Origin: Natrarchaeobius halalkaliphilus
GTDB lineage: Archaea; Halobacteriota; Halobacteria; Halobacteriales; Natrialbaceae
Assembly (NCBI RefSeq): GCF_003841485.1
Contig: NZ_REFY01000004.1
Location: 62,001 to 126,000 of the forward strand
DNA length: 64,000 bases
Direction: 5' to 3'
Part shown: positions 10,682 through 30,330 of the stretch, in pieces
Layout of the letters: each line of letters opens with the position of its first letter
How positions within the stretch are numbered: the stretch's first letter is position 1
The notes under the pieces: generated by a model
Database searches by the model: none
What the model was told of the DNA's origin: nothing
What the model saw: the letters and a program-made list of their open reading frames with translations, nothing else
Made by a program: the position numbers and the translations under genes

Positions 10682-12415
10682 ATGATGTCCCAGCTAGAAG
10701 TATCGCCCCAACGAGTACATCTTATGTCGGAACAGCAAAGATTCGTCGAGGAATCCACCCCCACGGAAGCCCTGGTTTTCTACAGACCTATCAAGGTCGA
10801 TACGCGTGGTATTCCAAAGCTGGACGCTACGCGGATCCCTCAGGCCGCCGAAGTAGACAAGCTTCTAAGCCATATTAAGGTAGACAAGCTGAAGTACCCG
10901 ACCAGTCTCAAGGACGCGGAGATGGGCGAGGTTGCTTTCGACTACGCCGTCGATATTGTAGGATCCGGGGCGGACAAGGAGACGAACGTCAAGCTCTTTC
11001 TCGCCAACTTTTGTGACTCTCTCCAATCCAAGCAGCGAACGAAAGACAAGTACGCGATGTTAGTCTGTTATGAAACCGACTTCCTGCTCGCACACGTCAA
11101 AGCAGAACGTGGGATGTCGATTCAAGAAGAAAGTGGCGACGTAGAACTGGTCCGCCGATTTCTCGACGTCGACAACATCCTCAGCGCCGCCTACTTCGAG
11201 GACTTGGAAGACGACATTAAGTTCTCACACTTCACTGACACGGACTCTGGTTCGTTCCGTGACTTCCTCGGTGTCTCCGAGAAACGGTTCAACTACCGTC
11301 GGAAGAACATCCAGATCATCTGCCACTACGAGGGCAAGAGCGGTATCGAGTGCAAGTTCGAGTTCAGTAATGATCAAATGGAAGAACGGTGGCTCCAGCA
11401 GGGATCGCTTGAGTTCTTCAATGGGAAGTTCAAGCTCTCAAACGGACACTCACACAACATCAAGGAAATCCGGTGGGGGCGTGACTCCTACGAGACGCCG
11501 CAGAGCTTCATGAGCGAGTTCAAAGAGTACAGCTACGAACTCGACGGACAGGCTCGCCGATACAACGATCTGAAGCGGCTTCCCGGGAACGATGTTCCCT
11601 CGGCCTACAGTGACGACGTGACCCTGACCGATTACAAAAGCGAAGTCATCATCGAGGGCGAGGACGGTGAGCCAGAAGTCCAGCCAAAGGGAGAGGTCCC
11701 TGACCATATCCACGTGATGTATGCAAACAACTCGATCGCGTTGAGTGCCGACTTTGCAGGTGACATCTTCCGTGACCTAATCGACACCGCCGATTTTTCT
11801 CTTTACCATCCGTCGGAGTCGTTCGCATCAGAGGAGTTCAAACTCAACGGACTCTCGCTTCTCAACATCGACAAGGCTGAAATCGCCTCGGAAAGAGCCT
11901 CGTTGCTCGCAACTACCCACAATCACTTAGACAACGCCACGGGGCAGACAGTTCGCCGCTGTCTCGGGTTCGTCTTCCTCCACGTACTCGCTGAATCTGA
12001 CTGTGTCAGTGTCGGATTCAAGAACGGTATCAAGGAGCTCATCAACCTGAACCACGGAGCAACCCGTCAACACGACGTTGTGACGACGAAGGAGCAGGAG
12101 GGTGATGGGTTGATTGAATACAAGGACAAGGACGACCTCAGCAAAGAGGACACCGCAGCTAGCATCGTCGAGAACATAGAGAAAGAGGGTCGAAACTATG
12201 ATGAGAAGCTGTTCTTGTGGGGAGTCGATGAGGACACTCGTCGTATCGACGGGTTACGTAAGCAGAAGTGGGGGGACGACCGCGTGTCTGGTGTTCAGCG
12301 CCACGTACTTGAGCGGTTGGCCGACCGAGACGTGGAATACACTGACTTCGAGTTACTAAACCTCCCGATCGGTGACGAGCAGGAGCGGTGTATCATCGTT
12401 GGCATTCTTCACTAG
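10682..12415 (+). CDS. Unknown 577-residue protein
   Basis: Long single gene with no recognised domain. It is alpha/beta, acidic, soluble and lacks signal or membrane segments. Notable stretches are FLANFCDSLQSKQRTKDKYAM, GYELD-like EYSYELDGQARRYNDLKRL, and a C-terminal HVLERLADRDVEYTDFELLNL. ATG codons at 10682, 10685 and 10724 (MSEQQRF) are in frame; the last would give 563 residues. It is divergent from the two-gene unit on the left and convergent with the RAMA genes on the right, standing alone in a defence-like neighbourhood. It could be a sensor or effector, but the sequence gives no direct evidence. Confidence 0.6.
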   Translation: MMSQLEVSPQRVHLMSEQQRFVEESTPTEALVFYRPIKVDTRGIPKLDATRIPQAAEVDKLLSHIKVDKLKYPTSLKDAEMGEVAFDYAVDIVGSGADKETNVKLFLANFCDSLQSKQRTKDKYAMLVCYETDFLLAHVKAERGMSIQEESGDVELVRRFLDVDNILSAAYFEDLEDDIKFSHFTDTDSGSFRDFLGVSEKRFNYRRKNIQIICHYEGKSGIECKFEFSNDQMEERWLQQGSLEFFNGKFKLSNGHSHNIKEIRWGRDSYETPQSFMSEFKEYSYELDGQARRYNDLKRLPGNDVPSAYSDDVTLTDYKSEVIIEGEDGEPEVQPKGEVPDHIHVMYANNSIALSADFAGDIFRDLIDTADFSLYHPSESFASEEFKLNGLSLLNIDKAEIASERASLLATTHNHLDNATGQTVRRCLGFVFLHVLAESDCVSVGFKNGIKELINLNHGATRQHDVVTTKEQEGDGLIEYKDKDDLSKEDTAASIVENIEKEGRNYDEKLFLWGVDEDTRRIDGLRKQKWGDDRVSGVQRHVLERLADRDVEYTDFELLNLPIGDEQERCIIVGILH

Positions 12416-12504
12416 CAGCACCCGTCAATATTCAAGTGGTTGGTGGTGAAAACTATGCTTCGCCTATGCAGCTACTCGCGCGTACTGCACTGTAGCGGAT
12501 ACGT

Positions 12505-12834
12505 CTACTCTGGAAGTTCGCTGATTGGAACCCACTCTCCATCATCGTCTTGGTACTCCCACCAGTCCCATCCGCTGTATCCGTAGGGATCGTTGCGAGA
12601 GTCCGCACCTCGGTGTCGCCGATCAGCTTCTCGGGCGGCTCCTGACGGTGTGCGCGTCGTGAAGTCAGAATCGTCCGGCCCGGTATCACCAGGGACATCA
12701 ATCCGCTCACCTTGGACGTGGGCTGTCACGACGTCGTCCTCGTACTCTCCGCTCTTGTAGACATGGCGGAGCGTCGTACCGTTGTCCAGTTGCCCGAGCT
12801 TCGGATTCAGCCACCAAGGCATTTCTTCTCCCAT
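12505..12834 (-). CDS. RAMA-domain small protein
   Basis: 109 residues. LDNGTTLRHVYKSGEYEDD, VQGERIDVPGD, TPSGAAREAD and YSGWDWWEY follow the order of the RAMA domain (restriction enzyme adenine methylase associated), a fold found attached to DNA methylases and nucleases and thought to recognise DNA or its modification. It is a paralogue of the C-terminal half of the gene just upstream (2-bp gap), so the pair arose by duplication, and it lacks the RHH-like N-terminus of that gene. Tryptophans in GWDWWEY match the aromatic end of the domain. Confidence 0.65.
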   Translation of the reverse strand: MGEEMPWWLNPKLGQLDNGTTLRHVYKSGEYEDDVVTAHVQGERIDVPGDTGPDDSDFTTRTPSGAAREADRRHRGADSRNDPYGYSGWDWWEYQDDDGEWVPISELPE

Positions 12835-12836
12835 CG

Positions 12837-13298
12837 TTATCCCTCCGCGAGTACGGTGATCGGTTCCCAGTCACCATCCTCGGTTTCGTACTCCCACCAA
12901 GTCCAGCCGTTGTATCCCTCGCCGCGAGCGTCATCGTCGCGAAGCTTTTTGTCGGCTATCCGTGCGGCTCCGGTGGGGCTTCGCGTCTCCTGCGTATCAC
13001 CCTCGACGGACAACCGGCCACCTTGCACGGTGGCCTCGACCGTTTCGCCGCTGTACTCGCCGCGCTGGTATCGATGTCGGACCACGGTACCATCCGGCAA
13101 CTGACTCAATGCGGAATCCTCTGCTTCCGTCTCCTGGCTGTTGTGCGTCGTCTCTCGGTTGTCTCGATCTTCGAGCGCCGCCTCTTCATCTATGTGTGCG
13201 AGCACGCGAGCGAGCACGTCATTCCACGATTCGTCTCGGTTTCCGTAGCGACCGAGGTCTCTGTAGAGGTCTTCGTCTACCTTGATAGTTCGCGCCAT
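12837..13298 (-). CDS. RHH-like plus RAMA-domain protein
   Basis: 153 residues. Residues 1-36 (MARTIKVDEDLYRDLGRYG...VLARVLAHID) resemble the short ribbon-helix-helix antitoxin-type DNA-binding segment common in haloarchaea. Residues 66-136 form a RAMA domain: LPDGTVVRHRYQRGEYSG, RSPTGAARIAD and GYNGWTWWEY. The combination suggests a sequence-specific DNA binder with a modification- or structure-reading module. First gene of a leftward pair; the promoter region between 13299 and 13444 is shared with the divergent DUF6884 gene. Role as a regulator or a modification sensor is inference. Confidence 0.68.
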   Translation of the reverse strand: MARTIKVDEDLYRDLGRYGNRDESWNDVLARVLAHIDEEAALEDRDNRETTHNSQETEAEDSALSQLPDGTVVRHRYQRGEYSGETVEATVQGGRLSVEGDTQETRSPTGAARIADKKLRDDDARGEGYNGWTWWEYETEDGDWEPITVLAEG

Positions 13299-13444
13299 AC
13301 TGTACTATCATTAGCCCGACCACATAAACCTTATCCTGTCCTTGGTTACTAAGCAAATTCTGATGGAGACTCCGTTTACGCTCGGTGCTGAATCTCCATA
13401 AGAACGACCAGAGGCTTCATCGGGCCGGAAAGAGATTACCCGCT

Positions 13445-13870
13445 ATGGACATCGGGCTCGTGAGCTGTACCAAGAGCAAACGCGAGCAGGCTGCAAAGCC
13501 CGCTGACCTCTACATGCCGTCGACGTTCTTCCAGAAGGCGCGTGAGTACGTCGAAGCCAACCACGACCGCTGGTATGTCCTTTCAGCCAAACACCATCTA
13601 CTCGATCCTGCTGGCCCGCCTATCGAACCTTACGACGACACCCTGTCTGGTGCGCCGGTTGCCCGAAAACGTGAGTGGGCTGAAACCGTGTACGGCCAGC
13701 TCGAAGACGAGGGTTTACTCGACGAAGGCAATCGTCTCGTTTTCCACGCAGGGCGCAACTACTACTCCGAACTCATCCCGCTACTGGACGATACCCCGGT
13801 AGACATCGAAACCCCGACTGATGGCCTCCAGTTCGGTGAGTCGCTCGCGTGGTACAACGAACACCTGTGA
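13445..13870 (+). CDS. DUF6884 family protein
   Basis: 141 residues from ATG 13445; the frame extends upstream but the family starts at MDIGLVSCTKSK. Conserved blocks are ADLYMPSTFFQKAREYVE, WYVLSAKHHLLDP and IEPYDDTLSG, the hallmark of DUF6884. The fold is thought to be nucleotide- or base-processing, and members occur in viruses and defence regions, but no reaction is established. It is followed 42 bp later by the GIY-YIG-like gene in the same direction, so the two likely form a unit. Confidence 0.7.
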   Translation: MDIGLVSCTKSKREQAAKPADLYMPSTFFQKAREYVEANHDRWYVLSAKHHLLDPAGPPIEPYDDTLSGAPVARKREWAETVYGQLEDEGLLDEGNRLVFHAGRNYYSELIPLLDDTPVDIETPTDGLQFGESLAWYNEHL

Positions 13871-13912
13871 AAATCCCGAGCGATTTTGTGTGCTACCTCC
13901 GAACGGAGTGGT

Positions 13913-14623
13913 ATGTCGCGTCATTCGGATCTCGATAGACTATACGACCTTCTCAACCGTCTCGAAACAAACGTCGGTGGCAAGCAACGACTCAAGGACT
14001 GCACGGGATACATGGATTGGCCGGATCGCGGCGTGTATTTCTTTTTCGCTGAGGATGAGACGCGAGACGCAGCTGATCAGCTTCGGCTCACCCGGATCGG
14101 CACACATGCGGTGTCCTCGGGATCGGGTACATCGTTGTGGAACCGACTACGGACACACCGCGGAGCGAACAGCGGGACCTACGAAGACGGCGGAAATCAT
14201 CGGGGTTCGGTCTTCCGTAAGCGTGTCGGCGAGGCTCTGATCGAACGAGACGGTCTTCGCGACGAGTATCCACACTGGGGTGATGGCTCCAGTGCGAATC
14301 GAGAACGTCGCCTCGCAGAGTTAGAACACGAACGTCGCGTGAGTGAGTACATCCGTGACCTCCCGTTCCTGTGGATCCACGTCGACGACGAGCCCAGCCC
14401 GCAGAGTGACCGTTCCTATATCGAACGCAACGCAATCGCTCTCGTCAGCAACTACCGGAAGGACTCCCTCGACCCTCGGAGTGGCGGTTGGCTGGGGCGT
14501 GACAGTCCCCGTAGCGAGATCAGCGACTCGGGTCTATGGAACATCAACCACGTCGGAGAAGAGTACGACACGGCGTTTCTGGACCGGTTGGCTGATGCCG
14601 TAGCGGATACCTCTGCCCTCTGA
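13913..14623 (+). CDS. GIY-YIG-like nuclease
   Basis: 236 residues from ATG 13913. GVYFFF (40-45) and LTRIGTHAV (59-67) stand in for the GIY and YIG strands, followed by LWNRLRTHRG with the conserved Arg and His, GGNHRGSVFRKRVG, and a candidate catalytic Glu171 in SYIERNAIALVSNY. GIY-YIG enzymes cut DNA; this divergent subfamily appears repeatedly in haloarchaeal genomes as a stand-alone protein. It is the last gene of the DUF6884 unit. Nuclease activity is predicted from motifs only. Confidence 0.65.
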   Translation: MSRHSDLDRLYDLLNRLETNVGGKQRLKDCTGYMDWPDRGVYFFFAEDETRDAADQLRLTRIGTHAVSSGSGTSLWNRLRTHRGANSGTYEDGGNHRGSVFRKRVGEALIERDGLRDEYPHWGDGSSANRERRLAELEHERRVSEYIRDLPFLWIHVDDEPSPQSDRSYIERNAIALVSNYRKDSLDPRSGGWLGRDSPRSEISDSGLWNINHVGEEYDTAFLDRLADAVADTSAL

Positions 14624-14885
14624 GTTAACTGTGACCTAGGGGTGCCCTGGCCGTCGTAGCGTCTGCCGGGTAGCTGTTGGCATGAACCGCGTAGAGATGA
14701 CTCTCAACCCGTTGCGGATGGAGGATTGAGGGTTACGTCATTCAGCCGGAGGCCGACATACGCGCTGAGCGCCAGGATGACCGGAGGCGCTACGCCGGTG
14801 GTTGCAAACACGACGCTTAGACAGCCGGAGATTATGAGTTCCTTCGTCATTTGTCTGAGGTATTTTAGGATGCGGTTCTCCGATC

Positions 14886-14965
14886 CGCCGTTATCCCCTC
14901 ATGAGGATTCGAACCTCGAAATCCAGGGTCCACACCCGCTGTCCTCAGACGCGTCGGTGTTAACA
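14886..14965 (-). other. tRNA-like 3' remnant (possible old attachment scar)
   Basis: Read on the minus strand, a T-arm-like GAGGTTCGAATCCTC is preceded by a GGGT/ACCC stem resembling a class II variable arm and by CTGAGGA, which could be an anticodon loop with GAG. The acceptor side has no matching 5' half nearby. It looks like a decayed piece of a tRNA-Leu-type gene, perhaps an attachment scar of a nested or earlier element. The rest of 14624-15012 has no supported gene. Confidence 0.35.
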
Positions 14966-15012
14966 AACCGTAGGAGTTCAACCGATAAAAGATCTCGTCC
15001 CGGAAAGAGTAG

Positions 15013-15330
15013 TTAACGACCGTGGTGTCGGTACATCCCCTCGCTCCAGCTGAGCGTCCAAGAGAGCGCGATCAGTGCTGCGATTAGCAGGTTGAACAGG
15101 ACGTTCAGAACATCACCAGCTGTGTAAGGCGGGAGAATGGGGAGAACAATCGACACCCAAGCCTCGACAAAGTACGGAAGCGTCTCAAAGTTCTGTGGTT
15201 GACGGCTCAACAACCCGATATTGATTACCAGTAGCTGTAGTGCGGTGTTGACTGTCCCGCCAGCACCGTACAGGAATCCAAATCGGGCGATGAAAGTCCG
15301 AATGAAATACTTTTCTGATCCTTGATACAT
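15013..15330 (-). CDS. Small membrane protein of unknown function
   Basis: 105 residues with two or three hydrophobic helices (GGTVNTALQLLVINIGLL, AWVSIVLPILPPY, VLFNLLIAALIALSWTLSW) and charged ends (MYQGSEKYF, YRHHGR). It lies 11 bp downstream of the helicase gene stop in the same direction, so it is probably the third gene of the methylase-helicase operon. Small membrane partners occur in several abortive-infection systems, but nothing in this protein shows such a role. Confidence 0.55.
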   Translation of the reverse strand: MYQGSEKYFIRTFIARFGFLYGAGGTVNTALQLLVINIGLLSRQPQNFETLPYFVEAWVSIVLPILPPYTAGDVLNVLFNLLIAALIALSWTLSWSEGMYRHHGR

Positions 15331-15341
15331 CGTATCCTTCC

Positions 15342-18300
15342 CTATGTGCTGAACGTAACCTGGGACATCAACTGTGGTCGATCATTTTCCTCCTCGTCTT
15401 CTTCGGGTGCAACGACCATCCAGCAGATCAGCTTGACCTCATCTTCCTGAATCGGTGGGAGTGGATCAGGTGCCTCGAACGGCTGGAGACCCAGATCTTC
15501 GACTTTCTCGACGAGTTGACGGGACTTCTCGACCGGAGCAAGCGAATCGTCCTCGTATATCTCCCGTAGCTCGCGCTCGTACCGACGACCCCACGGAGCC
15601 TCGACGGCCTCGACCGTCTCCTGAAGCTCATCTTGGGTCATGTCGTCCGGCCAGTTCTCCCGTAGGTGCTGGGCGACCTCGCGGAACAGCCGCCGGATGT
15701 CGGGCTGCACGTTCAACGGGTCGGTCTGCTCTTGCCACTGCTTGTAGATGTCTGACCGCGCCGTTTCCCACGCATCGTACACGCGGTCACGCATCGAGTC
15801 TGGAAGCGTTCGCTCCGTCTCCTCGGTACACTCGATCCGCTTGAGACAAGTGAGCGTGTCTTGGACGATCTCGTCGTCTTCCTCGTCCATCTCCTCGGGG
15901 AGGAACCGCATGAACACCTCCTCGCCAATCCGGGCGCAAAAGAAGTAGCCCGGCGTGTCACCCTCGAAGCCAGAGCCCGCCGCCCACGGAAGCGACGTGA
16001 CCTGGTCTTCTCGCGTCTCCAGCCCTTTGCGAAGTTCCTGACGGTACTCTTCACCGGAGTAGGCGGCCGCAGTTCCGCCGCCTTCCTCGTAGAAGTCCCT
16101 GTCCTCCTCCTGGATCGAGCCGATGTCCGCGACGCGCTCCGCGAAGTTCTGGTTCAGCGTCTCCATGTCAGGGATCACGCCGCCGCTTACGCCGATCGAT
16201 CGAGCCGCCTGCGTGAGCTTCTGGCGGACTCGGTGTTCCAGCTCAAGGAGATCGTCAAGGCGGTCCTCGGGGAAGAACGTGAACGGGAAGATCTTCGAAT
16301 GCGGCGAGTTTACGCGGTCGATACGTCCGTTCCGCTGGACGACACGCATCGGATTCCACGGAAGATCGTAGTTGATGACGGTACGTGCCTCTTGGAGATT
16401 GACACCCTGGGCGAGCACGTCCGTCGAAATCAGGATGTCGAACTCGTCAGTCGCATCCGGGGGTGCGTCACCGGAGTTCGGCGCGAATCCGTGAACCGCT
16501 TTCTCTCGCGTCACGCCGTACTTCGATCCGTCACCACTGACGGCTGCGATTCGATCCTCGTAACAGGATAGTTCTTCGCTATCCTCGACGGCTTCTTCCA
16601 GATACTCGTAGATCCAGTCGACGGTGTCCTCATAGTACGAGAACAGCAGTACCTTGCGGTTGCGACGGAAGGCCGACTCAACACTCTCGTCGTCGACGCC
16701 TTCCGACTGGGCGTCCTCACGCGCCTCTGTGACGACATCTTGAAGTGCATTCCGTAGAGCGTGGAGTTTCTCGTCGTCGTCGCGTTCAACTTCGCGTGCG
16801 CCGTCACGCCAGCGTTCGAGGATCTCGACGTCATTCTCTAGGTCGGCACGGAGTTGTCCCGGGTCGGCGTTGACGGCGCTAAGCGGGATATGGCCGTCTG
16901 AGACGTCACCAAGGGTCTCGTCGAACGCCTCGTCGCTATCCATCTCCACCCACTCATCAATCGCCTCTGGGTCGGGGAAGCGGTCTTCTTCCATAAGCCG
17001 GAGGGCGGCGCGATTTTGCGTCACCATCCGGTCGAGCGTGTTGGCAAAGGCGTGACTCGACGACTCAAACCGCTTGAGCAGTCCCGTCCGTAGCAGGCCA
17101 ACGAGGGAGAGCTCTGAGCCGTCCTCCTCGCCTTCGAGATAGTACGACGGTCGGTAGCGGGCCAGCGTCAGCTCGGACTCGTCATGATCGCCTGCGGCCA
17201 GTCCACGGGCAACGTCCTCGAAGTATGCGTCCCCGAAGGTGTCGGAGAATGTGTAGTCAACGCGCCGGGGGTTGGGGTCGGGGAAGTTGATCCGAACCGA
17301 GCCGCCCTCGCCATCAGGCATTGTCGCATTCTCGTAATGATTCTTGATGAACCGACGAGTCCGCCGGACGGTCGTCTCGTCGAGGACGTCGAACAGCATG
17401 TCGGGACTCAGGTCGGACGGGTCCTCTGACTGGGCCGTCTTGAACCGCTCGCGGAGCGACCGGATACCCTCGTTGGCGAACGTCGCGTCGTTTTTGATAA
17501 AGTAGTTGAGCAGGTAGTACAGGTCCCAGAGCGAGTTGTTCACGGGTGTCGCCGTGAGCATCACTACGTCCTTCGGTGGGTCGCCACGCAGGAGCGTGCG
17601 AAGTGCGTGGGACTGCTGAGTTCCGGGGTTGCGGAACGCGTGGGCCTCGTCGATGACAACCAGCTGGTACTCGTCGACGTCGAGGTTCAGTACGTTGAGG
17701 TCGCCGCCGAGTTGCCGATCCCGCCGGAGTTCAGCGTACGACACCGTCTCGAACTGCACACCCCACTCCGGTGCTTTCTGCGTCCACATCCCATCTCGAA
17801 GGTACGCGGGTGCGACGACAAGTGCGCGCTGTCGGTTCTGCTGGACGTACTGGCGGAGGAGCTCGCCCGCGATGTAGGTCTTCCCGAGGCCGACCTCGTC
17901 GGCAATGATGACGCCACGGTGATCCTCAAGGAAACGGTTCGCTCGCCTGACGGCGTCTTGCTGGAAGTTCGTGAGGTTGATACCGCCGTCTTCGTCTTTC
18001 TCCTCTTCCAGCTCCTCGCCGTACCGCTCGTACAGGACACGTAGGTAGATCAGGTATGGATCGTAGGGTTCGAACCGCTCCTCGTACAGTGCAGCGAGGT
18101 CGAACTCCTCGCTCTCGGCCCAGAGGTCGTCGAACCAGTCCTGGACCTCACCCGTAACGTGGGGGTCGTACGCGCCGATGTTCAGCTCCAGATTTGAGTT
18201 CAGGCCCGCGCCGGTGAAGTTTGACGAGCCCGCGATGACGCCCTGGTGGTCCGAGAAAAGATACGCCTTTCCGTGGATGAACCGGTCCTCGTGGCGGCGG

Positions 18301-18707
18301 ACTTCGACGCTGTCGCTCCGGAGGAAGTTGACCAGCTCTTGGAGGTTTTCGTCGACTTCACGAGAGAACCCGAGTAGGTCTCGATCACGTTTGAGGTTGA
18401 AGTCGAGGGACTGGAGGGACTCGTTGATCTGCTTCTGATTGTACTGCTCGTCACGGGGCTCGCCGGGTTGTCGCCAGCGTTCCGTGCCCTCGTTGCTTGG
18501 TTGGGCACCGACCAAGAGCCGCACCTGGTCGACGTGTTCGAGGCCATCGGAAACCGAGAAGTACCCACGCGGATTGAAGTAGCCCGTAACGATGTCGAGG
18601 TCGGGATTGTCCGCGAGCGTGTTGTCGAGGTCCGTGAGGTAGTCGTTAATCGCGGTCGAGAGCGTGTTGCCGTCCCGGTTGTCGACGAACTGCGGTTGCT
18701 CAGTCAT
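15342..18707 (-). CDS. PLD-domain SNF2/DEAH helicase (defence)
   Basis: 1121 residues from ATG 18707, which overlaps the end of the methylase gene by 8 bp (ATGACTGA). Residues 1-215 hold a phospholipase-D-type nuclease motif (HGK at 145-147, Asp153, GSSNFTGAGL at 160-169). Helicase motifs follow: DEVGLGKTY (270-278), DEAH (353-356), TATP, and the C-terminal lobe ISTDVLAQGVNLQEA with RNGRIDRVNS. This is an SF2 SNF2-like ATPase fused to a nuclease. With the methylase it resembles DISARM class 1 (DrmD plus DrmMI) with the PLD component fused on. It should translocate on and cut unmodified DNA; that function is inferred. Confidence 0.85.
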   Translation of the reverse strand: MTEQPQFVDNRDGNTLSTAINDYLTDLDNTLADNPDLDIVTGYFNPRGYFSVSDGLEHVDQVRLLVGAQPSNEGTERWRQPGEPRDEQYNQKQINESLQSLDFNLKRDRDLLGFSREVDENLQELVNFLRSDSVEVRRHEDRFIHGKAYLFSDHQGVIAGSSNFTGAGLNSNLELNIGAYDPHVTGEVQDWFDDLWAESEEFDLAALYEERFEPYDPYLIYLRVLYERYGEELEEEKDEDGGINLTNFQQDAVRRANRFLEDHRGVIIADEVGLGKTYIAGELLRQYVQQNRQRALVVAPAYLRDGMWTQKAPEWGVQFETVSYAELRRDRQLGGDLNVLNLDVDEYQLVVIDEAHAFRNPGTQQSHALRTLLRGDPPKDVVMLTATPVNNSLWDLYYLLNYFIKNDATFANEGIRSLRERFKTAQSEDPSDLSPDMLFDVLDETTVRRTRRFIKNHYENATMPDGEGGSVRINFPDPNPRRVDYTFSDTFGDAYFEDVARGLAAGDHDESELTLARYRPSYYLEGEEDGSELSLVGLLRTGLLKRFESSSHAFANTLDRMVTQNRAALRLMEEDRFPDPEAIDEWVEMDSDEAFDETLGDVSDGHIPLSAVNADPGQLRADLENDVEILERWRDGAREVERDDDEKLHALRNALQDVVTEAREDAQSEGVDDESVESAFRRNRKVLLFSYYEDTVDWIYEYLEEAVEDSEELSCYEDRIAAVSGDGSKYGVTREKAVHGFAPNSGDAPPDATDEFDILISTDVLAQGVNLQEARTVINYDLPWNPMRVVQRNGRIDRVNSPHSKIFPFTFFPEDRLDDLLELEHRVRQKLTQAARSIGVSGGVIPDMETLNQNFAERVADIGSIQEEDRDFYEEGGGTAAAYSGEEYRQELRKGLETREDQVTSLPWAAGSGFEGDTPGYFFCARIGEEVFMRFLPEEMDEEDDEIVQDTLTCLKRIECTEETERTLPDSMRDRVYDAWETARSDIYKQWQEQTDPLNVQPDIRRLFREVAQHLRENWPDDMTQDELQETVEAVEAPWGRRYERELREIYEDDSLAPVEKSRQLVEKVEDLGLQPFEAPDPLPPIQEDEVKLICWMVVAPEEDEEENDRPQLMSQVTFST

Positions 18708-21700
18708 CGCTTCGTGTCCCCGCCTCTCGTTCCTCCTCACGGTTAGCGTGATCGAGGTCGAGTTTGTCAGCCCAACTCGTGTAGTAGTCGAGTACACGGT
18801 CTAACCGTTCCTCGTGGTCCCAGCCGTCGTGGAAGGTCTCGAAGAGGACCTCGACATGTTCACGGGAGAGCCCGTAGAGGTGCGCAACGACGGCGTCAAG
18901 TTCGTAGGTCTTGTCCTGCTTTTCCTCCTCGCCAAGAGGACCATAGTCGACACCAACTGCATCAGCCCAGTCTGAGTAGCGTTCATCAACTGCGGCCAGT
19001 CGTGCGGCCAGCTCTATTGCACGGTCTCTAAGTATACCATTAACGCGGGGAACGGGGAACGTCTTCATTAGACTCTTCGTAACGTTTGCCTCAACAAATC
19101 TGCGGGCATACCAATCGAAGGGGATCGAACTTAGAATCCCTAGCAGGTAGGCTTCATCACGTTCATCTCCTTTAGGCCAGATGAAGTACCAGGAGTGGTG
19201 GGTGAGTGGCGTCTTCGGTGGAATAAGTGAGGAGATGACCGTGCGAGTATCTGTACTTCTCCCGATTTGTCTGTAGGCTATGCGTGGATGCAGACAGGGG
19301 AGGGTTTCGATGTCCTCTATCCACGCTTCAGACATCTCTGTGAATGGCGAACGCCAATGACCATACGAGCTTTGTCTATCCTCCTGAAGATACTCTTTAA
19401 TGAGGTCAGGCTCAGCCCAGGCGTATCTCACTCCGGTATCTGGTTCCCAGAGGTTGTAAGATCCGCCTTTGTATATCGGCCAATAGCTCTCTGGCGGATC
19501 ATCAATAAAGTGCATCAGGGTGGTTCCGTCATCCTTTTTCTTGTCCTGCGTAGCATCCAGTTCTCGTACGAGCAGGGCACGCCAACCAAAGTCGTCGTTT
19601 TCCGTGTCAAGAGGTGGAGAACGCGCCATTTTTTCAAGTGTCTTTACAGAATCTGGATTAGTGGGTAACATCGGGAACGCACTCTTTGCCCACCGTCTTA
19701 CCACATCTAAGGGGAATGAATGAGGATCTCTTCGCTCTTCATAGGCTTCTGGCGAAGAGTAAGGACCGCGAAGTGGGAACTCAGTATCTGGACCGGGAGC
19801 AGTTTTTTCGATACTCCAGAGTGCGATTGTATACTGTGGATGAACATTTTCGAAAACCCATCCGCGGTTGTTTGTGAGTAGTGTGAGATCGCTTCCAGTC
19901 CCTTCGTCAACAACTCGGAGACGGAATTCCTCCATTTTTGGTCCTAATAAAGCCGCACGAGGTAGCACTACGCCAAGGTGACCACCGGTATTGACTAAGT
20001 CCCAGAATCGCCACCCAAAGCCAGCATATAGATCTGGATCGCTTCCTCCGATAGGATATGGACCATTGATCAGGATTGACGACCGCACAGACTCTTCTGT
20101 ACGTTTCCTTTCAAGTTCTTCAACGAGATCTGGTCGTTCTTCCTCAAGTTCATCAATACGTTTTTCGACCTCAGTTTGGGTTGTTTCGTATAATCCCGGA
20201 TAATACATTTTCCAGAAGGTGTCACGTTCCACCTTTGTCTTCTCCCAGGGTGGGTTTCCGACAACAACATCAAATCCGGATCCATCCCCATCGAACACTT
20301 CCGGGAAGGCGGCGGGGAAATGAAGAGGCTCAGTCGATTCTAATGCCGCTTGAGCCAGCGTGTAGCTTTCATGATCAGTCACATCTATTTCTGTATTCGA
20401 AACAGGCGATGTGTCAATATCATCATCAATACGTGACGCAGCCAAAATATCAAAACGCGCCCGAACCTGCTCCATCTTGTTCTCAATCTCTGCACGGGTC
20501 TCACGGGCTTCCTGTACCTGCTCGGCACTGGCATCAGCAAAGCTACCGAGTTCGTCGATGTCATCTCGGATCTCGTTCATCACGCTTTGACCACCAGCAA
20601 ACATCCCCAACGAGGACTGCTCGACATCGAGAATTTCCGTGACTTCATCAAGAGTGCCGATTCCGGCCAACGAATCCCCAGTTACGAGGTTGTAGTCGAG
20701 GAACGTCAGCGGAAGCCCTGGAACGAACGTGTGTACCCAGATAGACAGCCGGGCGAGTTCGGTCGACAACGGGTTGAGATCGACGCCATAGATACACCGT
20801 CGGGCGACCTGACGCCGTAGAAGCTGTCCACGTTCGACTGGCGGCGCGTACTCTTCGTCCTCGAACGCCTCAAGTGCCGCGTCCTCTAGATTATCAAGTT
20901 CGTCCTCGACGGGCGACAGCGGGTTCTCAGTCAGGTATGCGTAGAGGCGCGACTCGATGCGGTCAACAGCCCCAACAAGAAAATGTCCCGACCCCATCGC
21001 GATGTCAGAGACACGGAGGTCGAAGAACGCATCCGCGGCCGCGTGCTCGCCTTCTTCTTCGCGGAGCCGGTCGATCCGGTCAAGGTGATCGTCCAGCGCA
21101 GGTTCAAGCGAGTGGTCGAGAAGGTGCTCGACGAAACGGGATTTCGTGTAGTACGTTCCCGTCGCCTTTCGCTCGCCGGACTGACCGTGGAGGTAAACCT
21201 CGCCTTCGTCGACAATGACTTCCTCGTCACCGAGCGTCTGCTGTCCGTCCGAGTCGACCGGGACGTAGTGCCCCTCGTCATCGGTGGTGAGCGGCTGTTC
21301 CGCCAGCGACAGCTCGGATTCAAGAAGTCCCTCGTAGATCACGCCGAACTCCCTCACACCGATGTTGCGGAAGTCGACCGGCCCCTGATACCCGTCGCCC
21401 GTCTCGTCAATAAGTAGCTTCGCCAGCACCGGACCGAACTCGGCGTTATTGAGTCGGATGTCCGCCAGCTTCGCGCCCGCCTCGGAGATGTTCTCATCCT
21501 CGGAGAGCAGGCGGCCGTCGTAGGCTGGAAGCCCCAGCTCGTCATGGCCGTGGTGGATGGCCCGCGAGAGGTGCATCACATCGTCCCAGTGGTCGTAGAA
21601 CGCGGCATCGAAGTCGCCGTCGTCCTCGATGAAGCCATGGAGATCGTGGGCCTTCTGCTTCAGCGAGTTCCGGTCGTACCGCTCGTTGCGCCGTCGCGGA

Positions 21701-22806
21701 AGGAACTCCTCGTCTTCGGCGTAAGCGATGAACAGCAGCCGGTAGAGCAACACGAGCGTCATCTCGTAGGTCTCGTCCAACTGCTCTTTCGTAGGGTCGT
21801 CGAGGTCGCGGGCACGGGCAATAGCCTCCGCGAGGTCCGGGACGACATCGTCGTAGATGCGCTCACGGAGCCGTTCTCCGAGATCAGCCGCGTAATCCTT
21901 CGACCGCTCCATGATGTCGTGAAGCGTTCCGTCTTCACGGAGGGCGTTCGCGGAGAACAGCAGCCAGAGATAGGCGGCTTTCTCGTCCGCAAGTAGGCTG
22001 GTGTTCACCTCGACGTAGGTGTCCGTCCGACCGCGCGAGCCGAATCCAGCGTCAGGATTCGTCGTGTACAGCCGCAGAGTGTCACCGCTGCTCCCGATGA
22101 CGTATTCGAGGTTGCGCTTGTCGGCCTCGTTGAGCGCGTAGGCTACCGGCGACTGGCCCACGAACCGTTCCTGCGTGTGGTCGAATGACTCATCTTCCTG
22201 GAGGAACATCGCTACGGCGCGTTCGTGGCCGTCGCTCGTGTCCTTGAGCACGTAACTCTGGTCGGTGAGCTGGTCGATCTCGTAGTTGAGACCCTTGATC
22301 AGCTCGCGTGGGTCGTCGTCGATTGCCTGCTTGGCTCGTTCGGTAGCCTCTTCCCAGTCGTCGCGTTCGGGGACGCCGACCTTTAGCTCGTGTGTCGAAA
22401 GGAGGCCCTGATTCCGTAGCCCGGTTAGTTCCTCGTCAAGCTGCGGGAGCATCTCAGTGAGGAACCGCTGGGCCGCGTGTCGGTCAGGCTCGTCGAGAGC
22501 GGTGTCACAGACGCGATCTGCTTGTCCACGGTCGACATCCCGGTAGACTGGTGGTTCTTCGCCACTCGGCCCACACAGCCCCGCGTAGCCGTCGTAGAGG
22601 GCAACAACGAGAATCGGGTTTACTCGCCCGCCACGTCGATCTTTGTACGCCTTCTGGAGAAACTCTTTGGTCGGTCGTTCGCCGTGATCGACGACAACGA
22701 CCTCCAGCGCACTTGATCCGTTTCCCTGGTAGAACTCGAAATCGCCTCCAGCCGGATCGTCAGCCCATGGACGGCCAGAGCGTGATTCGAGAAAGTCCGA
22801 AGCCAT
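18700..22806 (-). CDS. Large Eco57I-class adenine DNA methyltransferase
   Basis: 1368 residues. ATGTYYTKSRFVEHLLD (548-564), motif I DIAMGSGHF (601-609), GVDLNPLSTELARLSIW (674-690) and motif IV NPPW (851-854) identify an N6-adenine methyltransferase of the type IIG/PglX/DrmMI class. The N-terminal 300 residues contain no clear nuclease site. The C-terminal half probably includes the target-recognition region. A TATA box 25-34 bp upstream of the start suggests a leaderless transcript. It heads the operon with the PLD-helicase gene, so it probably supplies self-protection. BREX PglX and DISARM DrmMI are alternative names for the family; no other BREX or DISARM genes are present. Confidence 0.85.
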   Translation of the reverse strand: MASDFLESRSGRPWADDPAGGDFEFYQGNGSSALEVVVVDHGERPTKEFLQKAYKDRRGGRVNPILVVALYDGYAGLCGPSGEEPPVYRDVDRGQADRVCDTALDEPDRHAAQRFLTEMLPQLDEELTGLRNQGLLSTHELKVGVPERDDWEEATERAKQAIDDDPRELIKGLNYEIDQLTDQSYVLKDTSDGHERAVAMFLQEDESFDHTQERFVGQSPVAYALNEADKRNLEYVIGSSGDTLRLYTTNPDAGFGSRGRTDTYVEVNTSLLADEKAAYLWLLFSANALREDGTLHDIMERSKDYAADLGERLRERIYDDVVPDLAEAIARARDLDDPTKEQLDETYEMTLVLLYRLLFIAYAEDEEFLPRRRNERYDRNSLKQKAHDLHGFIEDDGDFDAAFYDHWDDVMHLSRAIHHGHDELGLPAYDGRLLSEDENISEAGAKLADIRLNNAEFGPVLAKLLIDETGDGYQGPVDFRNIGVREFGVIYEGLLESELSLAEQPLTTDDEGHYVPVDSDGQQTLGDEEVIVDEGEVYLHGQSGERKATGTYYTKSRFVEHLLDHSLEPALDDHLDRIDRLREEEGEHAAADAFFDLRVSDIAMGSGHFLVGAVDRIESRLYAYLTENPLSPVEDELDNLEDAALEAFEDEEYAPPVERGQLLRRQVARRCIYGVDLNPLSTELARLSIWVHTFVPGLPLTFLDYNLVTGDSLAGIGTLDEVTEILDVEQSSLGMFAGGQSVMNEIRDDIDELGSFADASAEQVQEARETRAEIENKMEQVRARFDILAASRIDDDIDTSPVSNTEIDVTDHESYTLAQAALESTEPLHFPAAFPEVFDGDGSGFDVVVGNPPWEKTKVERDTFWKMYYPGLYETTQTEVEKRIDELEEERPDLVEELERKRTEESVRSSILINGPYPIGGSDPDLYAGFGWRFWDLVNTGGHLGVVLPRAALLGPKMEEFRLRVVDEGTGSDLTLLTNNRGWVFENVHPQYTIALWSIEKTAPGPDTEFPLRGPYSSPEAYEERRDPHSFPLDVVRRWAKSAFPMLPTNPDSVKTLEKMARSPPLDTENDDFGWRALLVRELDATQDKKKDDGTTLMHFIDDPPESYWPIYKGGSYNLWEPDTGVRYAWAEPDLIKEYLQEDRQSSYGHWRSPFTEMSEAWIEDIETLPCLHPRIAYRQIGRSTDTRTVISSLIPPKTPLTHHSWYFIWPKGDERDEAYLLGILSSIPFDWYARRFVEANVTKSLMKTFPVPRVNGILRDRAIELAARLAAVDERYSDWADAVGVDYGPLGEEEKQDKTYELDAVVAHLYGLSREHVEVLFETFHDGWDHEERLDRVLDYYTSWADKLDLDHANREEEREAGTRSDD

Positions 22807-22830
22807 ATCAACGGACTTGGAAGACCGGGG

Positions 22831-22840
22831 ACATATATCT
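22831..22840 (-). promoter_or_regulatory. TATA box of the methylase-helicase operon
   Basis: AGATATATGT on the minus strand, about 25 bp upstream of the methylase ATG (22806), the spacing expected for a leaderless haloarchaeal transcript. Confidence 0.55.
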
Positions 22841-23029
22841 TGGTAGCTTGCTCTCAGTTGGCGGTGGATTTGCTACCTTGTCCCCGACGTCCAAGCAATC
22901 GCATCTGTTGGCATTGTCACGACAGGATCAATAATCCGGTTCCAGGTCTCGGGGGTTGCACATACATATGGGTCCGTACTTACTTACAGATCCTATCTGG
23001 AAGGTGCGAACTTCGCTACGGCTGATTCA

Positions 23030-23767
23030 TCACGTATTAGGATTTTCTTCCAAATTCGGCGTCACGATCGCTGCCAGAACAAAGAATAAGACACCGAACG
23101 GAATCCCTATGATCGTAATACAAAACATGATCCCCAATATGAAACAGAGATTAGCAAGGTTCTTCTTATACTTCTCAGTCGGTGTCAACTCTCGGTCTGG
23201 GCTGTCCGCCTTGATCTCCTCCCGGATCTCTAACACCCACATGATTGCTTTTTCGACTATCGACCCGCGGAGAACCCCATCTAACCCACCCGAGTATACC
23301 TCTCCCTTGATGTCTACTGGCTGACGCCTCGGATCTATATCCATCGCCTCCTTCCAAACGTCCTCGTGACACTTGTCACAGGTCGCTCCACCGAGACCGG
23401 GGTTCAAAGCCCAAGCACCACATTCCGGACACGGACCTGTTTTGGCATACACCTCCGCATCTTCCCAGTGTTTATCTCCCACACTGGTCGTCCGGAGTAT
23501 GCTCAGGTCTTCTCTTTCGATGTCATAGACCCGTTCAGAATCCACGTCACTGAGTGTTCTCGATTCGTCTACGTTGAGATCGTCCCGTTGATACTGCTCT
23601 CCACACAACTGACATACGTATGCATCGTTTCCCTGTACAATCGCAAAAAGTCCACAGCTTGGGCAAGCTCCGTTTGTTACGATGTCTGATATGGAGCCCA
23701 TGATTCTACCACCCAATCCATCTTCGTGGGGGTGTCTCCACAGCCAGCGAGCGTTCTCCGATTTCAT
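23030..23767 (-). CDS. Zinc-ribbon membrane protein
   Basis: 245 residues. Two four-cysteine zinc ribbons are visible: CPSCG with CQLCG, and CPECG with CDKCH. A helical linker follows, then a hydrophobic C-terminal region (LANLCFILGIMFCITIIGIPFGVLFFVLAAIV) that makes one hairpin or two membrane helices. An internal start at 23701 (MGSISDIV) would place the first ribbon close to the N-terminus and is a good alternative. It is oriented as if upstream of the methylase gene but separated by 223 bp with its own promoter for that gene. No known family name; a membrane-attached zinc protein of the element. Confidence 0.65.
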   Translation of the reverse strand: MKSENARWLWRHPHEDGLGGRIMGSISDIVTNGACPSCGLFAIVQGNDAYVCQLCGEQYQRDDLNVDESRTLSDVDSERVYDIEREDLSILRTTSVGDKHWEDAEVYAKTGPCPECGAWALNPGLGGATCDKCHEDVWKEAMDIDPRRQPVDIKGEVYSGGLDGVLRGSIVEKAIMWVLEIREEIKADSPDRELTPTEKYKKNLANLCFILGIMFCITIIGIPFGVLFFVLAAIVTPNLEENPNT

Positions 23768-23947
23768 CGATTCTCCGGTCTAAGCCACCTGTTCGAACTA
23801 ACTTCTCTCCCCAATCAAATACAAGAAGACGCATGATAGTCTGGTTGAGAGGACTACCACTTAGTTTTATCTTACCGGTTAGTTTTTCTCATCGGTTAGT
23901 AGAATCGTTTATATAGCTGTTGTTAGGCGGTCTGGAAATCCTAATCG

Positions 23948-24187
23948 ATGAGTCTAATCGGAGAGACGAAGCAGAGTATCTTACTCCGGCTCCGCGAAGA
24001 ACCAGCGCATGGATACGACTTGGCGAAGGAGTTGGACATCTCGTCTGGATACGTCTATCAGCACCTTCAAGAGCTACAAGATGAGGGAATGATTGAGGTC
24101 TATGAGGACGAAACAGAGGGTCGACAGCGTACCAGCTACCACTTGACCGAAAATGGAGAGTTATTGCTGAAAGCCCTCGGTGAATAG
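23948..24187 (+). CDS. PadR-like winged-helix regulator
   Basis: 79 residues that are nearly only a winged helix: LRLREEPAHGYDLAKELDIS, YVYQHLQELQDEGMIEVY, RTSYHLTENGELLLKAL. The pattern HGYDLAKEL and YxHLxxLxxxGxI is typical of PadR. Promoter elements of AT-rich DNA (tttatatag) lie about 35 bp upstream. As the only rightward gene between leftward operons, it may regulate the element's own transcription; the target is unknown. Confidence 0.75.
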   Translation: MSLIGETKQSILLRLREEPAHGYDLAKELDISSGYVYQHLQELQDEGMIEVYEDETEGRQRTSYHLTENGELLLKALGE

Positions 24188-24218
24188 TTCGCAACTGCCC
24201 ATAGAATGAGATTCATGA

Positions 24219-24464
24219 CTACTTCTCCGGTACTGGTCGAAGATCTCGCCAGCGAAAGTGTTCAATCTCGCCATTCCCAAACTCAACGGCGAACAAGTAC
24301 GAGTCGCGCACGTCGCCGGTAACTGCATCTGCGTCGTCTTCGATCAGATCGACAACCTCGCCTTTCCGGTCGTGATACAGCTCAAAATCGGGATCACCTT
24401 TGTCGGGAATGTCAATGCGGACCCGATCTCCGACCTCGAATCGTCTCATCGGCGTAACCATCAC
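24219..24464 (-). CDS. Small SH3/KOW-like protein
   Basis: 81 residues; the likely start is the internal MRRFEVGDRVRI. FEVGDRVRIDIPDKGDPDF, HDRKGEVVDLIED and LFAVEFGNGEIEHFRWRDL form a small beta-barrel like KOW or hypothetical SH3-type domains. It is the last gene of the leftward mini-gene operon. Function is unknown. Confidence 0.55.
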   Translation of the reverse strand: MMVTPMRRFEVGDRVRIDIPDKGDPDFELYHDRKGEVVDLIEDDADAVTGDVRDSYLFAVEFGNGEIEHFRWRDLRPVPEK

Positions 24465-24482
24465 GGGGCTGGCTCGTGGTCG

Positions 24483-24707
24483 TTACGGTCCAGCCCACTG
24501 ATCGCCCATCTCGCGGGCACGGTCGTCGACGTCGTCTCGATGGTCGACAGCAGACAGCGGCACTCGACCCGTCATCTGCTCCCAACCACACCGTTCGTTG
24601 CACTCGTAGTAGACTTTCCAGCTCGACGCTTCCTCCTTCGTACCGTAGACCAGTAACGCACCGCAGTCAGGACACGTCGCCGTGTCGTGTTTCTTGAACG
24701 TAATCAT
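24483..24707 (-). CDS. Small zinc-binding protein
   Basis: 74 residues with CPDCG and, 24 residues on, CNERCGWEQ, a four-cysteine zinc knuckle (treble-clef-like) of a kind frequent in haloarchaeal mobile elements. It overlaps the next upstream gene by 4 bp, so translation is coupled. Probably a nucleic-acid or protein-interaction module; role unknown. Confidence 0.6.
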   Translation of the reverse strand: MITFKKHDTATCPDCGALLVYGTKEEASSWKVYYECNERCGWEQMTGRVPLSAVDHRDDVDDRAREMGDQWAGP

Positions 24708-24988
24708 TGCTCTATCGGGCGACTCCGATCCTTCACACGAACGCCAGCAAGTTGGTGACTCCAGAACACGGCCTCGACGATCACTTCGTCAGCTCCTTCC
24801 GTTCCAGGGTCCACTGATCCGGGACAACACTTCATGCACCAGGTCCGTCTTGGTGTCCAGCCGCCTTCGTCGTACCACGTGGCATACATCGAGACCTTAT
24901 CCCCGTGTTGAATCTGCTTGTTACAGCTATCGCAAATGTGGCCGGTCTGCACACCGTTGAGCGATGTTGCGGGATCAGGACGGCTCAT
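24704..24988 (-). CDS. Small zinc-finger protein
   Basis: 94 residues with HICDSCNKQI and WCMKCCPGS, giving two cysteine pairs 34 residues apart around an aromatic MYATWYDEGGWTP segment. It overlaps both neighbours by 4 bp (ATGA), a translational-coupling feature of the whole operon. Function unknown. Confidence 0.6.
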   Translation of the reverse strand: MSRPDPATSLNGVQTGHICDSCNKQIQHGDKVSMYATWYDEGGWTPRRTWCMKCCPGSVDPGTEGADEVIVEAVFWSHQLAGVRVKDRSRPIEQ

Positions 24989-25173
24989 CCGTCGATTCCC
25001 TCCAGTTCAATCCCGATTGCTTCAGCTGTGTTCTGGAAATTCTCTTCGCTGACTTCGATTGCTGTCTCGACGTACTCTTCGCGTCCCGTCTTTTCACCGA
25101 CGAGCCGGAAGATCGGATACCATTTGCGGAACCACCATACCATCAGGCGGATGAATCGCTCAATCATCGGCAT
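24985..25173 (-). CDS. Small amphipathic protein
   Basis: 62 residues. The N-terminus MIERFIRLMVWWFRKWYPIFRL is strongly aromatic and basic and may associate with membrane; the rest is acidic (EYVETAIEVSEENFQNTAEAIGIELEG). An AGGAGGTGA-like ribosome site directly precedes the ATG at 25173; the second ATG at 25167 is also possible. It overlaps the upstream gene by 14 bp. No family recognised. Confidence 0.5.
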   Translation of the reverse strand: MPMIERFIRLMVWWFRKWYPIFRLVGEKTGREEYVETAIEVSEENFQNTAEAIGIELEGIDG

Positions 25174-25561
25174 TCACCTCCTTGTACCACGCGTCGAGAT
25201 CGGACGAGTGGAGTGTCCATCCCTTCTCGGGGAGATTAGCCACGACGTCTTGCTTGAACCTCTGGTAGTGATCACAGGCGATGTCACCGTCAAACGCGTG
25301 CGCGAGCAACGCAATCGCGAGTTGTGCGGGGCCGCTTCCTCCATAGCCCCACTCGAACCCGCTTCTCGAAGCCGACAGCAGATCATACCTGAAGTCGAGC
25401 GGCTCGCCGTCGACGCTGACAGTACACTCTTCGCCTACCGGTGAAGTAGGATCTCGATAGCCGTGATAGACTGTTTCCGCCGAATCGGTCGTTGCTGAAG
25501 GCCCCGGATCGGTGCTTTGGATGCTCGAACCCTGGGTTTCGCCCCCGACATCGTGGCTCAT
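25160..25561 (-). CDS. DUF6166 family protein
   Basis: 133 residues. YHGYRDPTS, VDGEPLDFRYDLL, FEWGYGGSGPAQLAIALLA and the C-terminal WTLHSSDLDAWYKEV are the signature blocks of DUF6166, a family spread through haloarchaeal plasmids and viruses and also bacterial plasmids. No activity is known. It overlaps the SWIM-domain gene upstream by 4 bp. Confidence 0.72.
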   Translation of the reverse strand: MSHDVGGETQGSSIQSTDPGPSATTDSAETVYHGYRDPTSPVGEECTVSVDGEPLDFRYDLLSASRSGFEWGYGGSGPAQLAIALLAHAFDGDIACDHYQRFKQDVVANLPEKGWTLHSSDLDAWYKEVNADD

Positions 25562-25944
25562 CTTTCCGCCACCTCTCGAAGCCGTTCGACTGCATCTTCG
25601 AGTTTGGTAGCCGTCTCGCCTAACTCGTCAGCGGCCTGGATCAGTTCCGCGGCATCCTGCTGGATGTCGTTGGCCTGTTCGCTGAGCGATTCGCTGAGCG
25701 CATCGATGTCGACTTGCCCTACCTCTATCCTCACCCTCCGCACATGTTTACATTCTTTTACTTCCTCGCGGTACTGAAAGTCGGGACAGGAGCAGGCTGG
25801 CTCTCGCAGGTCAACCGTGTAGGCTGATCCGGATTGCGTCGTCACCTCGAAGAGCGCATCTCCCTCTTCAATGACGGTCATGTGCTCGCGGGCGGCCCGA
25901 AGCGTCCGGGCGTCAACTTCGGGCTGGACCGACTCTGAACTCAC
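25558..25944 (-). CDS. SWIM zinc-finger protein
   Basis: 128 residues. ACSCPDFQYREEVKECKHV is a CxCx(n)CxH SWIM motif, which binds zinc and interacts with DNA or protein. The C-terminal half (SESLSEQANDIQQDAAELI, TATKLEDAVERLREV) is a coiled coil. Such proteins are common in haloarchaeal elements and often near replication or recombination genes. It sits in the middle of the operon with ATGA overlaps on both sides. Confidence 0.72.
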   Translation of the reverse strand: MSSESVQPEVDARTLRAAREHMTVIEEGDALFEVTTQSGSAYTVDLREPACSCPDFQYREEVKECKHVRRVRIEVGQVDIDALSESLSEQANDIQQDAAELIQAADELGETATKLEDAVERLREVAER

Positions 25945-26438
25945 GCTTCGTCACCCCCAGTGTCGCGGACTGGTACCCAAACGGGCTCGTCGTTGGAGTA
26001 TTTGAGCTGTCGTTCCAAGTGAGCATCTTCGTCGACGAGGTCGATCGCCTGTTTGGCAGCTTCCAGAGTTAATGAGCCCGTCCCAAACGTGTGGCCCCGC
26101 TCCAGCGCCGAGGGATCGGTAGTGATCCGTACGTCGACGACCGGGCCGAACGACCGTTGGTTGACGCACCCCGCACGGGACGACCAGGGGCCTTTGAGCG
26201 TGACTTCTGTGCCGTCACGCATCGTGATGGTGTAACACCGACCGGCGTAGCCGCCATCGTTGCCGTCGCCAGACCACGCGTAGTAGGACACGAAACCGTC
26301 CTTGATTCCGCACCAGATTCCGTCTTCGTGCTCAAATCGGAGTTTGTCTCGCGACGGGATCTCGTCGACGACGACCTGTAGACGTGGGTCGTTGCCGACA
26401 TCTTCCATCCAATCTACTGACGCCGCTTTCAACTCCAT
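25941..26438 (-). CDS. Conserved element protein, unknown
   Basis: 165 residues, beta-rich with many Gly and aromatic residues (IWCGIKDGFVSYYAWSG, CYTITMRDGTEVTLKGPWSS) and a helical tail (GSLTLEAAKQAIDLVDEDAHLERQL). No recognised family or catalytic motif. The start overlaps the stop of the preceding small gene by one base and its end overlaps the SWIM gene by 4 bp, confirming the operon. Confidence 0.55.
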   Translation of the reverse strand: MELKAASVDWMEDVGNDPRLQVVVDEIPSRDKLRFEHEDGIWCGIKDGFVSYYAWSGDGNDGGYAGRCYTITMRDGTEVTLKGPWSSRAGCVNQRSFGPVVDVRITTDPSALERGHTFGTGSLTLEAAKQAIDLVDEDAHLERQLKYSNDEPVWVPVRDTGGDEA

Positions 26439-26641
26439 TAGGCGTCACCTCCCCGCCGCTGGACATCGCTGACGTACACGTGGCTCCGAGCCTTCTCGGC
26501 GTGTTCAGTACACGCTGGGTCCTGAGCGTAACCCCTCACGGGCGCGTTCACGATGACCGTGTGAGTGGCCTCTCGCTGACAACCGAGCTCCCGACGGTAC
26601 GGACCAGAACTCGATGGCGTCGCTCGCTGCTCGCTCATCAC
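26438..26641 (-). CDS. Small protein with Cys/His pair
   Basis: 67 residues. LGCQREATHTVIVNAPV and DPACTEHAEKA carry CxxxxxH and CTEH groups that could bind one zinc ion. It overlaps the first gene of the operon by 4 bp. Function unknown. Confidence 0.5.
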   Translation of the reverse strand: MMSEQRATPSSSGPYRRELGCQREATHTVIVNAPVRGYAQDPACTEHAEKARSHVYVSDVQRRGGDA

Positions 26642-26877
26642 GCCTCACCTCGACACGAGTTCGGGAGGTCACGTTTCTGGAGGACCTCTACGCCACACAG
26701 AGTACAGCGGTAGAAATGTTCCAAGTACTCCGTCTGCTCTGGATGTCCTCGATGTGGATCGGGGTGCTGCCCCGGAACCCATTCCGCCTTGTCGATGATC
26801 AGATGTGAGCCGACTCGCTCCGCGTCTGGGTGTTGTTGTGCCGATGCTCTTTTGCCGTAGCTGTAGCTATCTGACAT
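26638..26877 (-). CDS. Small zinc-finger protein, first gene of mini-gene operon
   Basis: 79 residues. FYRCTLCGVEVLQKRDLPNSC supplies CxxC and a third cysteine, and the upstream His-rich stretch (QHPDPHRGHPEQ) may complete a site. It is the first of nine overlapping small genes running left to 24219. The structured leader at 26912-26966 and the TATA box near 26981-26990 lie upstream. Confidence 0.55.
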   Translation of the reverse strand: MSDSYSYGKRASAQQHPDAERVGSHLIIDKAEWVPGQHPDPHRGHPEQTEYLEHFYRCTLCGVEVLQKRDLPNSCRGEA

Positions 26878-26911
26878 TGGCTTCTTGCCTCCATCAGGAA
26901 GCCTACCGAGT

Positions 26912-29780: not shown

Positions 29781-29788
29781 CGTCTCTA

Positions 29789-30307: not shown

Positions 30308-30330
30308 ATTTTAATCACTTATTTTTGCAT

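Follow-up and report, generated by a model that had tools for sequence, protein, structure and literature searches.

A standalone pair of a BrxX/PglX-like methyltransferase and a PLD-SNF2 helicase-nuclease in Haloarchaea, a probable ATP-dependent restriction-modification system

Several defense systems combine a PglX-like methyltransferase (MTase) with a helicase of the SNF2/RapA type. DISARM class 1 does so around a DrmA/DrmB core, with PLD as a separate protein (PMC9142583), and ARMADA is defined by a YprA-family helicase with DUF1998, which is its core (PMC12458937). The Type-2 BREX-related/Hma systems (PMC12839542) have an N-terminal HKD/PLD-SNF2 fusion and an N6-adenine MTase, accompanied by a DUF499 ATPase and DUF3780. 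PLD nucleases also work with SF2-type motors in restriction-modification (R-M) and related enzymes, either in one chain, as in SauUSI, which forms a PLD-mediated dimer and translocates by an ATP-driven mechanism (PMC7913695), or as in the ATP-dependent R-M systems CglI/NgoAVII (PMC4267653, PMC5737866). The pair of genes described here shares elements with all of these systems, but its PLD domain is fused to the helicase, unlike in DISARM, its genome has neither the MZB/DUF1998 protein of ARMADA nor the DUF499 ATPase of the BREX-related/Hma systems, and the pair has no constant third gene.

The window, the whole 64,000-nucleotide stretch of haloarchaeal DNA that was analyzed, codes for the pair together with the features collected in Table 1. 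The two open reading frames, their strand, order and short overlap are present as the preliminary description had reported, and so is the fusion, with PLDc_2 in the same 1121-aa chain as SNF2-rel_dom and Helicase_C. The nearest named relative of the pair is found in Natrarchaeobius chitinivorans, and a genome of the same genus carries an identical pair. PADLOC models the two proteins singly as candidate defense components, REase_MTase_IIG (PDLC03620) and HKD+Snf2 (C3a139). The two-gene set itself was not found described in the open-licence literature searched; parts of it have perhaps been described elsewhere. Halorubrum lacusprofundi ATCC 49239 carries the pair on plasmid pHLAC01, which its strain ACAM34_UNSW has lost (PMC10544981). 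The plasmid record lists the MTase as "hypothetical protein" and the helicase as "helicase-related protein"; hence, annotators miss the system.

Table 1. Features of the MTase and PLD-SNF2 locus and its surroundings (positions in the window)
Feature	Position	Strand	Basis
BrxX/PglX-like adenine-specific DNA MTase, 1368 aa	18700..22806	-	Pfam Eco57I; PADLOC PDLC03620; structural match BrxX/PglX
PLD-SNF2 helicase-nuclease, 1121 aa	15342..18707	-	PLDc_2, SNF2-rel_dom, Helicase_C; PADLOC HKD+Snf2; AlphaFold
MTase stop and helicase start overlapping by 8 bp, ATGACTGA	18700..18707	-	sequence; overlap in L001 also 8 bp
MTase motif I, SAM binding, DIAMGSGHFL, aa 601-610	20977..21006	-	
MTase motif IV, NPPW, aa 851-854	20245..20256	-	
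Exchangeable MTase cassette, putative target recognition, aa ~847-1297	18915..20268	-	alignment gap vs L001; uncoupled identity; GC
PLD active-site stretch, H145-G-K147 to G160-S-S-N163	18219..18275	-	invariant residues, 33 sequences
SNF2 motor, aa ~245-850; Walker A G273-LGK276; D353-E354-A-H356	16158..17975	-	
Membrane ORF, 105 aa	15013-15330		homologue sought in compared loci, not found
PDC-M57A (DUF6884) and PDC-M57B, PADLOC defense candidates facing the helicase	13385..14623	+	
Two tandem RAMA-like small genes	12505..13298 (12505-12834, 12837-13298)	-	weak Pfam match
tRNA-Thr-integrated element carrying the pair, 27.3 kb	8847..36160	.	45-bp direct repeats and integrase

Relatives were sought in one genome per species across 84,980 species, which yielded about 35 relatives of the helicase, mostly full-length and 25-91% identical. 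They span Haloarchaea, Nitrososphaera, Actinobacteria, Gemmatimonadota/Longimicrobiales and Rhodothermales, with further representatives in Chloroflexi, Planctomycetota, Thermoanaerobaculia and others, and when 393 genomes of the phylum were searched, further close haloarchaeal pairs and remoter archaeal ones came to light. Upstream sequence is available for 31 close relatives, and every one of them has the MTase, or its visible end, ahead of the helicase in the same orientation, in many cases with an overlap of 4 to 14 bp. Since the same gene order recurs from Haloarchaea to Actinobacteria, the arrangement is not due to chance. Searching from the MTase cassette instead, we found the helicase adjoining in 11 of 13 loci, the two exceptions being a truncated MTase (L170) and an intact MTase without the helicase (L171). 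The latter, at 2323-6444 of its locus and 56% identical, is a possible orphan MTase of the family. A split helicase frame in L176 and, in L113, an MTase of which a 118-aa stub is left next to a transposase indicate that the system also gets lost. Among phages, 18 records gave partial matches below 60% identity, none of which covered 80% of the helicase.

The gene-neighborhood survey proposed in the preliminary description shows a pair in constant order, for which clustering of the neighbors among the relatives' loci found no constant third gene. What lies between MTase and helicase varies: transposase-like genes (L005), clear RAMA proteins (L011 and L013), HNH (L014), IrrE-like and DUF4062/Fic-like genes (L022), a HerA-like gene (L028), Fic (L118) or a YhcG nuclease (L123). 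The 105-aa membrane protein that had been proposed as a third gene does exist as an open reading frame. The loci compared, closest relative included, gave no homologue of it, and from these comparisons it probably stands outside the system. Two loci first considered as members, L130 and L131, were set aside because the genes around their helicase code for DUF4391, an N6/N4 MTase and a Res-type protein of Type III; they hold a related SNF2 helicase (in L130 at 11789-18587) in a different, also unexplained, gene combination. Haloarchaeal PLD-SNF2 proteins of about 1270 aa in L039-L042, with a large Eco57I-type MTase on the opposite strand and converging, are another branch with a different gene order.

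The pair is carried by an element bounded by an exact 45-bp direct repeat (8847-8891 and 36116-36160) that corresponds to the 3' end of a tRNA-Thr gene, and a phage-type integrase gene (34761-35996) adjoins the repeat. tRNA-Thr has the same outer neighbor gene in the three other genomes of the genus, and the site may be an integration hotspot, relatives showing partial repeats nearby. Also inside the element is a PD-(D/E)XK_4 nuclease-like gene (32618-33991), and just beyond its left end there is an AbiEii-like toxin gene (7216-8031), both being additional genes of defense type. PDC-M57A/B face the helicase in the same way in L001 and L167 and are a recurrent neighbor rather than a part of the system; by eye, PDC-M57B has the likeness of a GIY-YIG nuclease, with no Pfam match. 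In the window, these two genes and the membrane ORF separate the helicase from the RAMA-like genes, of which only the second in the tandem gave a Pfam match to RAMA, below the cut-off. In Halorubrum lacusprofundi pHLAC01 (L112), copies 82-83% identical to them follow the helicase immediately on its 3' side. The RAMA-like genes are possibly an accessory reader and not a constant part.

The preliminary description had left open whether the locus is a minimal relative of DISARM or a distinct system, and the comparisons favor the second option. It had noted the absence of DrmA and DrmB, which extends beyond the locus: PF09369 (MZB/DUF1998) had no match in the whole genome, while control genomes were positive. 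Homologues always confined to full DISARM or BREX loci, which it had named as refuting, did not emerge for DISARM-type genes: among the 18 relatives' genomes in which the position of the pair is known (those with unsafe contig-number matching were left out), three have no MZB match, and in 15 the only matches are over 500 kb from the pair or on a different contig. A reduced DISARM, in which DrmMI and DrmD were kept, a DrmC-like nuclease became fused and DrmA/DrmB were lost, would account for domains like those of class 1 and for the second-best PADLOC models of the two proteins, DrmMI and DrmD. However, the top models are from other families by wide margins (819 bits vs 237 for the MTase; 201 vs 133 for the helicase), the helicase reaches 158 bits with the DrmD equivalog profile, whose cut-off is 610, and its SNF2 core falls with its family in a separate, fully supported clade from DrmD-like helicases, in a tree whose sequences were mostly gathered via the window's helicase and which depicts this separation rather than the full diversity of PLD-SNF2 proteins. 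Moreover, the pair is standalone in all relatives checked; therefore, nothing has been "lost" from it. On the DrmD score, the missing MZB, the SNF2 tree and the relatives' genomes, we rejected a DISARM remnant, which seems extremely improbable.

Three domains of the helicase are above Pfam cut-offs: PLDc_2 (125-198), SNF2 (263-454) and Helicase_C (683-801). The HGK (145-147) and GSSN (at 160) motifs highlighted in the preliminary description are indeed there, and H145, K147, G160, S161, N163 and E174 are invariant in 33 aligned sequences. From its PLD domain into the motor, the sequence profile of the helicase also matches chain 7clg_A, a "putative helicase" that we take to be SauUSI. In the classical HxKxxxxD motif, the position of the Asp is unconserved in the family and is Ser in the window protein; SauUSI, an active PLD nuclease, carries Glu at that acid position (PMC7913695). 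The AlphaFold models of the helicase and of the MTase (aa 1-1200) both have a pLDDT of 82, and structure searches place BrxX/PglX nearest to the MTase, followed by DrdV, BpuSI and CamA, while the motor resembles SNF2 remodelers, RapA and ZorD, matches that are at the domain level, with low full-length TM-scores.

To our knowledge, systems with BrxX/PglX exclude phages without known cleavage by the MTase. With this protein as the closest solved fold, the pair might act by exclusion, the MTase marking self DNA, the SNF2 protein blocking replication or transcription of unmarked DNA and the PLD domain serving as backup; DISARM likewise tolerates the loss of its PLD protein, DrmC (PMC9142583). We regard such a mode of action as unlikely, since the nuclease is fused here rather than optional, its PLD residues are invariant in distant relatives, and the genome has no match to DUF499 (PF04465) and, for PglZ, which BREX combines with a BrxC/PglY ATPase, a single match below the cut-off on another contig. 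DUF499 is present in some of the 18 relatives' genomes, never adjoining the pair.

In the MTase, motifs I (DIAMGSGHF, 601-609) and IV (NPPW) are both intact, and Pfam Eco57I is above the cut-off. The top PADLOC model matches it over nearly its full length and bears the name of Type IIG, the class to which DrdV and BpuSI point as well; the MTase might then be a self-sufficient enzyme that itself cuts, with the helicase as an accessory. Against this, no PD-(D/E)XK set of acids and lysine is conserved in the N-terminal third (aa 1-300) of 26 MTases, so that the PLD domain is the likely nuclease, and the constant partner protein carries this nuclease of its own. Judged from its residues, the Type IIG label is not supported, and we give little credence to a self-sufficient enzyme.

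The comparison of the window with L001 revealed where the pair varies. The helicase is 91% identical throughout, whereas the MTase is about 93% identical over aa 1-800, 30-60% over aa ~840-1300 and higher again at the end, and the DNA, 84-85% identical on both flanks, is unalignable between about 18915 and 20268. Over 325 locus pairs, the identity of the helicase correlates with that of MTase aa 1-800 (r 0.95) more than with that of aa 850-1300 (r 0.66), and a second set of 253 locus pairs gave 0.99 and 0.59, respectively. Some pairs of loci are conserved in both parts (helicase 0.94 and cassette 0.95 in L115/L176; 0.85 and 0.86 in L167/L169), while others share the helicase and not the cassette (0.96 and 0.47 in L114/L115; 0.96 and 0.31 in L023/L025; 0.94 and 0.60 in L167/L168). 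Drift predicts one curve; the split into two classes although the backbone is equally conserved in both thus indicates that cassette alleles have been replaced. The GC content of the window's cassette is 0.498 compared to 0.597 for the remaining gene, and it is below that of the rest in all six haloarchaeal MTases measured. In large MTases, C-terminal regions are generally less conserved, and the cassette could be merely a fast-evolving region. This is very doubtful, given its identity of either 0.95 or 0.47 at a helicase identity of 0.94-0.96, the sharp borders in the DNA and the GC shift. The best match to the window's allele among 391 genomes of the class was 57% identical, with no donor found, and in the genome itself the search for a second copy gave nothing beyond one distant MTase (34% over 377 aa).

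Residues ~850-1300 of the MTase therefore behave as an exchangeable target-recognition cassette. The helicase has no variable counterpart, its lowest 60-aa window being at 0.75-0.87 identity in four close pairs. From an MTase that exchanges its cassette and a helicase with no such region, we infer that specificity would be a property of the MTase alone, the nuclease having none itself. Exchange places the specificity in the MTase; that the nuclease obeys it does not follow from the exchange. Swapping of the cassette suggests an R-M system able to change its recognition sequence.

It seems likely (with a probability of roughly 0.7) that the pair is a standalone two-subunit ATP-dependent R-M system, with the MTase supplying the specificity for a PLD-SNF2 motor-nuclease that is itself target-blind. 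Several observations support this reading: the consistent pairing of MTase and nuclease described above (31/31 and 11/13 loci), the co-variation of MTase aa 1-800, and not of the cassette, with the helicase, the two classes of locus pairs, the helicase without a variable region, the intact and invariant catalytic residues of PLD and MTase, the absence of DISARM and BREX partners, and the precedents for a PLD nuclease with an SF2 motor in SauUSI (PMC7913695) and CglI/NgoAVII (PMC4267653). Counted against it are the unconserved Asp of HxKxxxxD and the intact MTase of L171 that lacks the helicase. The predicted activities of the pair are methylation, complex formation, translocation, cleavage and a role in defense. 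The MTase would read its DNA target through the C-terminal cassette, mark an adenine in the host genome and, as the specificity subunit, present unmarked targets to the PLD-SNF2 protein, which itself lacks a variable region for reading targets and would use ATP to travel along the DNA until two PLD domains pair and the unmarked invading DNA is cut. Specificity would change by a swap of the MTase cassette while the motor-nuclease stays constant, as in systems of Type III and Type I. If this is true, the swaps between L114/L115, L023/L025 and L167/L168 make methylation motif and restriction comparable on a near-constant backbone, and the pair is a simple test case of whether a PglX-type MTase alone can guide an SNF2 motor-nuclease.

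Among R-M systems, the pair resembles Type III in having two genes and, under the proposed reading, a specificity carried by the MTase subunit alone, which is the rule in Type III (PMC10609329), with an exchangeable target-recognition domain, whose exchange occurs in Type I/III systems (PMC3983042). It differs in its MTase class and in the SNF2 motor with an N-terminal PLD that replaces the usual Res protein. SauUSI has the same nuclease and motor in one chain but uses its own domain for modified cytosine, with no partner MTase, whereas CglI/NgoAVII have three genes, the ATPase being a subunit apart and the PLD joined to a B3 target domain. There is perhaps an even chance that the pair represents a separate, unnamed ATP-dependent R-M architecture of archaea and bacteria, in which a BrxX-type MTase of exchangeable specificity drives a target-blind PLD-SNF2 protein. 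It could be a minimal form of the pairing of PglX with SNF2 seen repeatedly, in BREX-3, DISARM class 1 and ARMADA, and two genes would then do what DISARM, BREX and ARMADA need four or more for.
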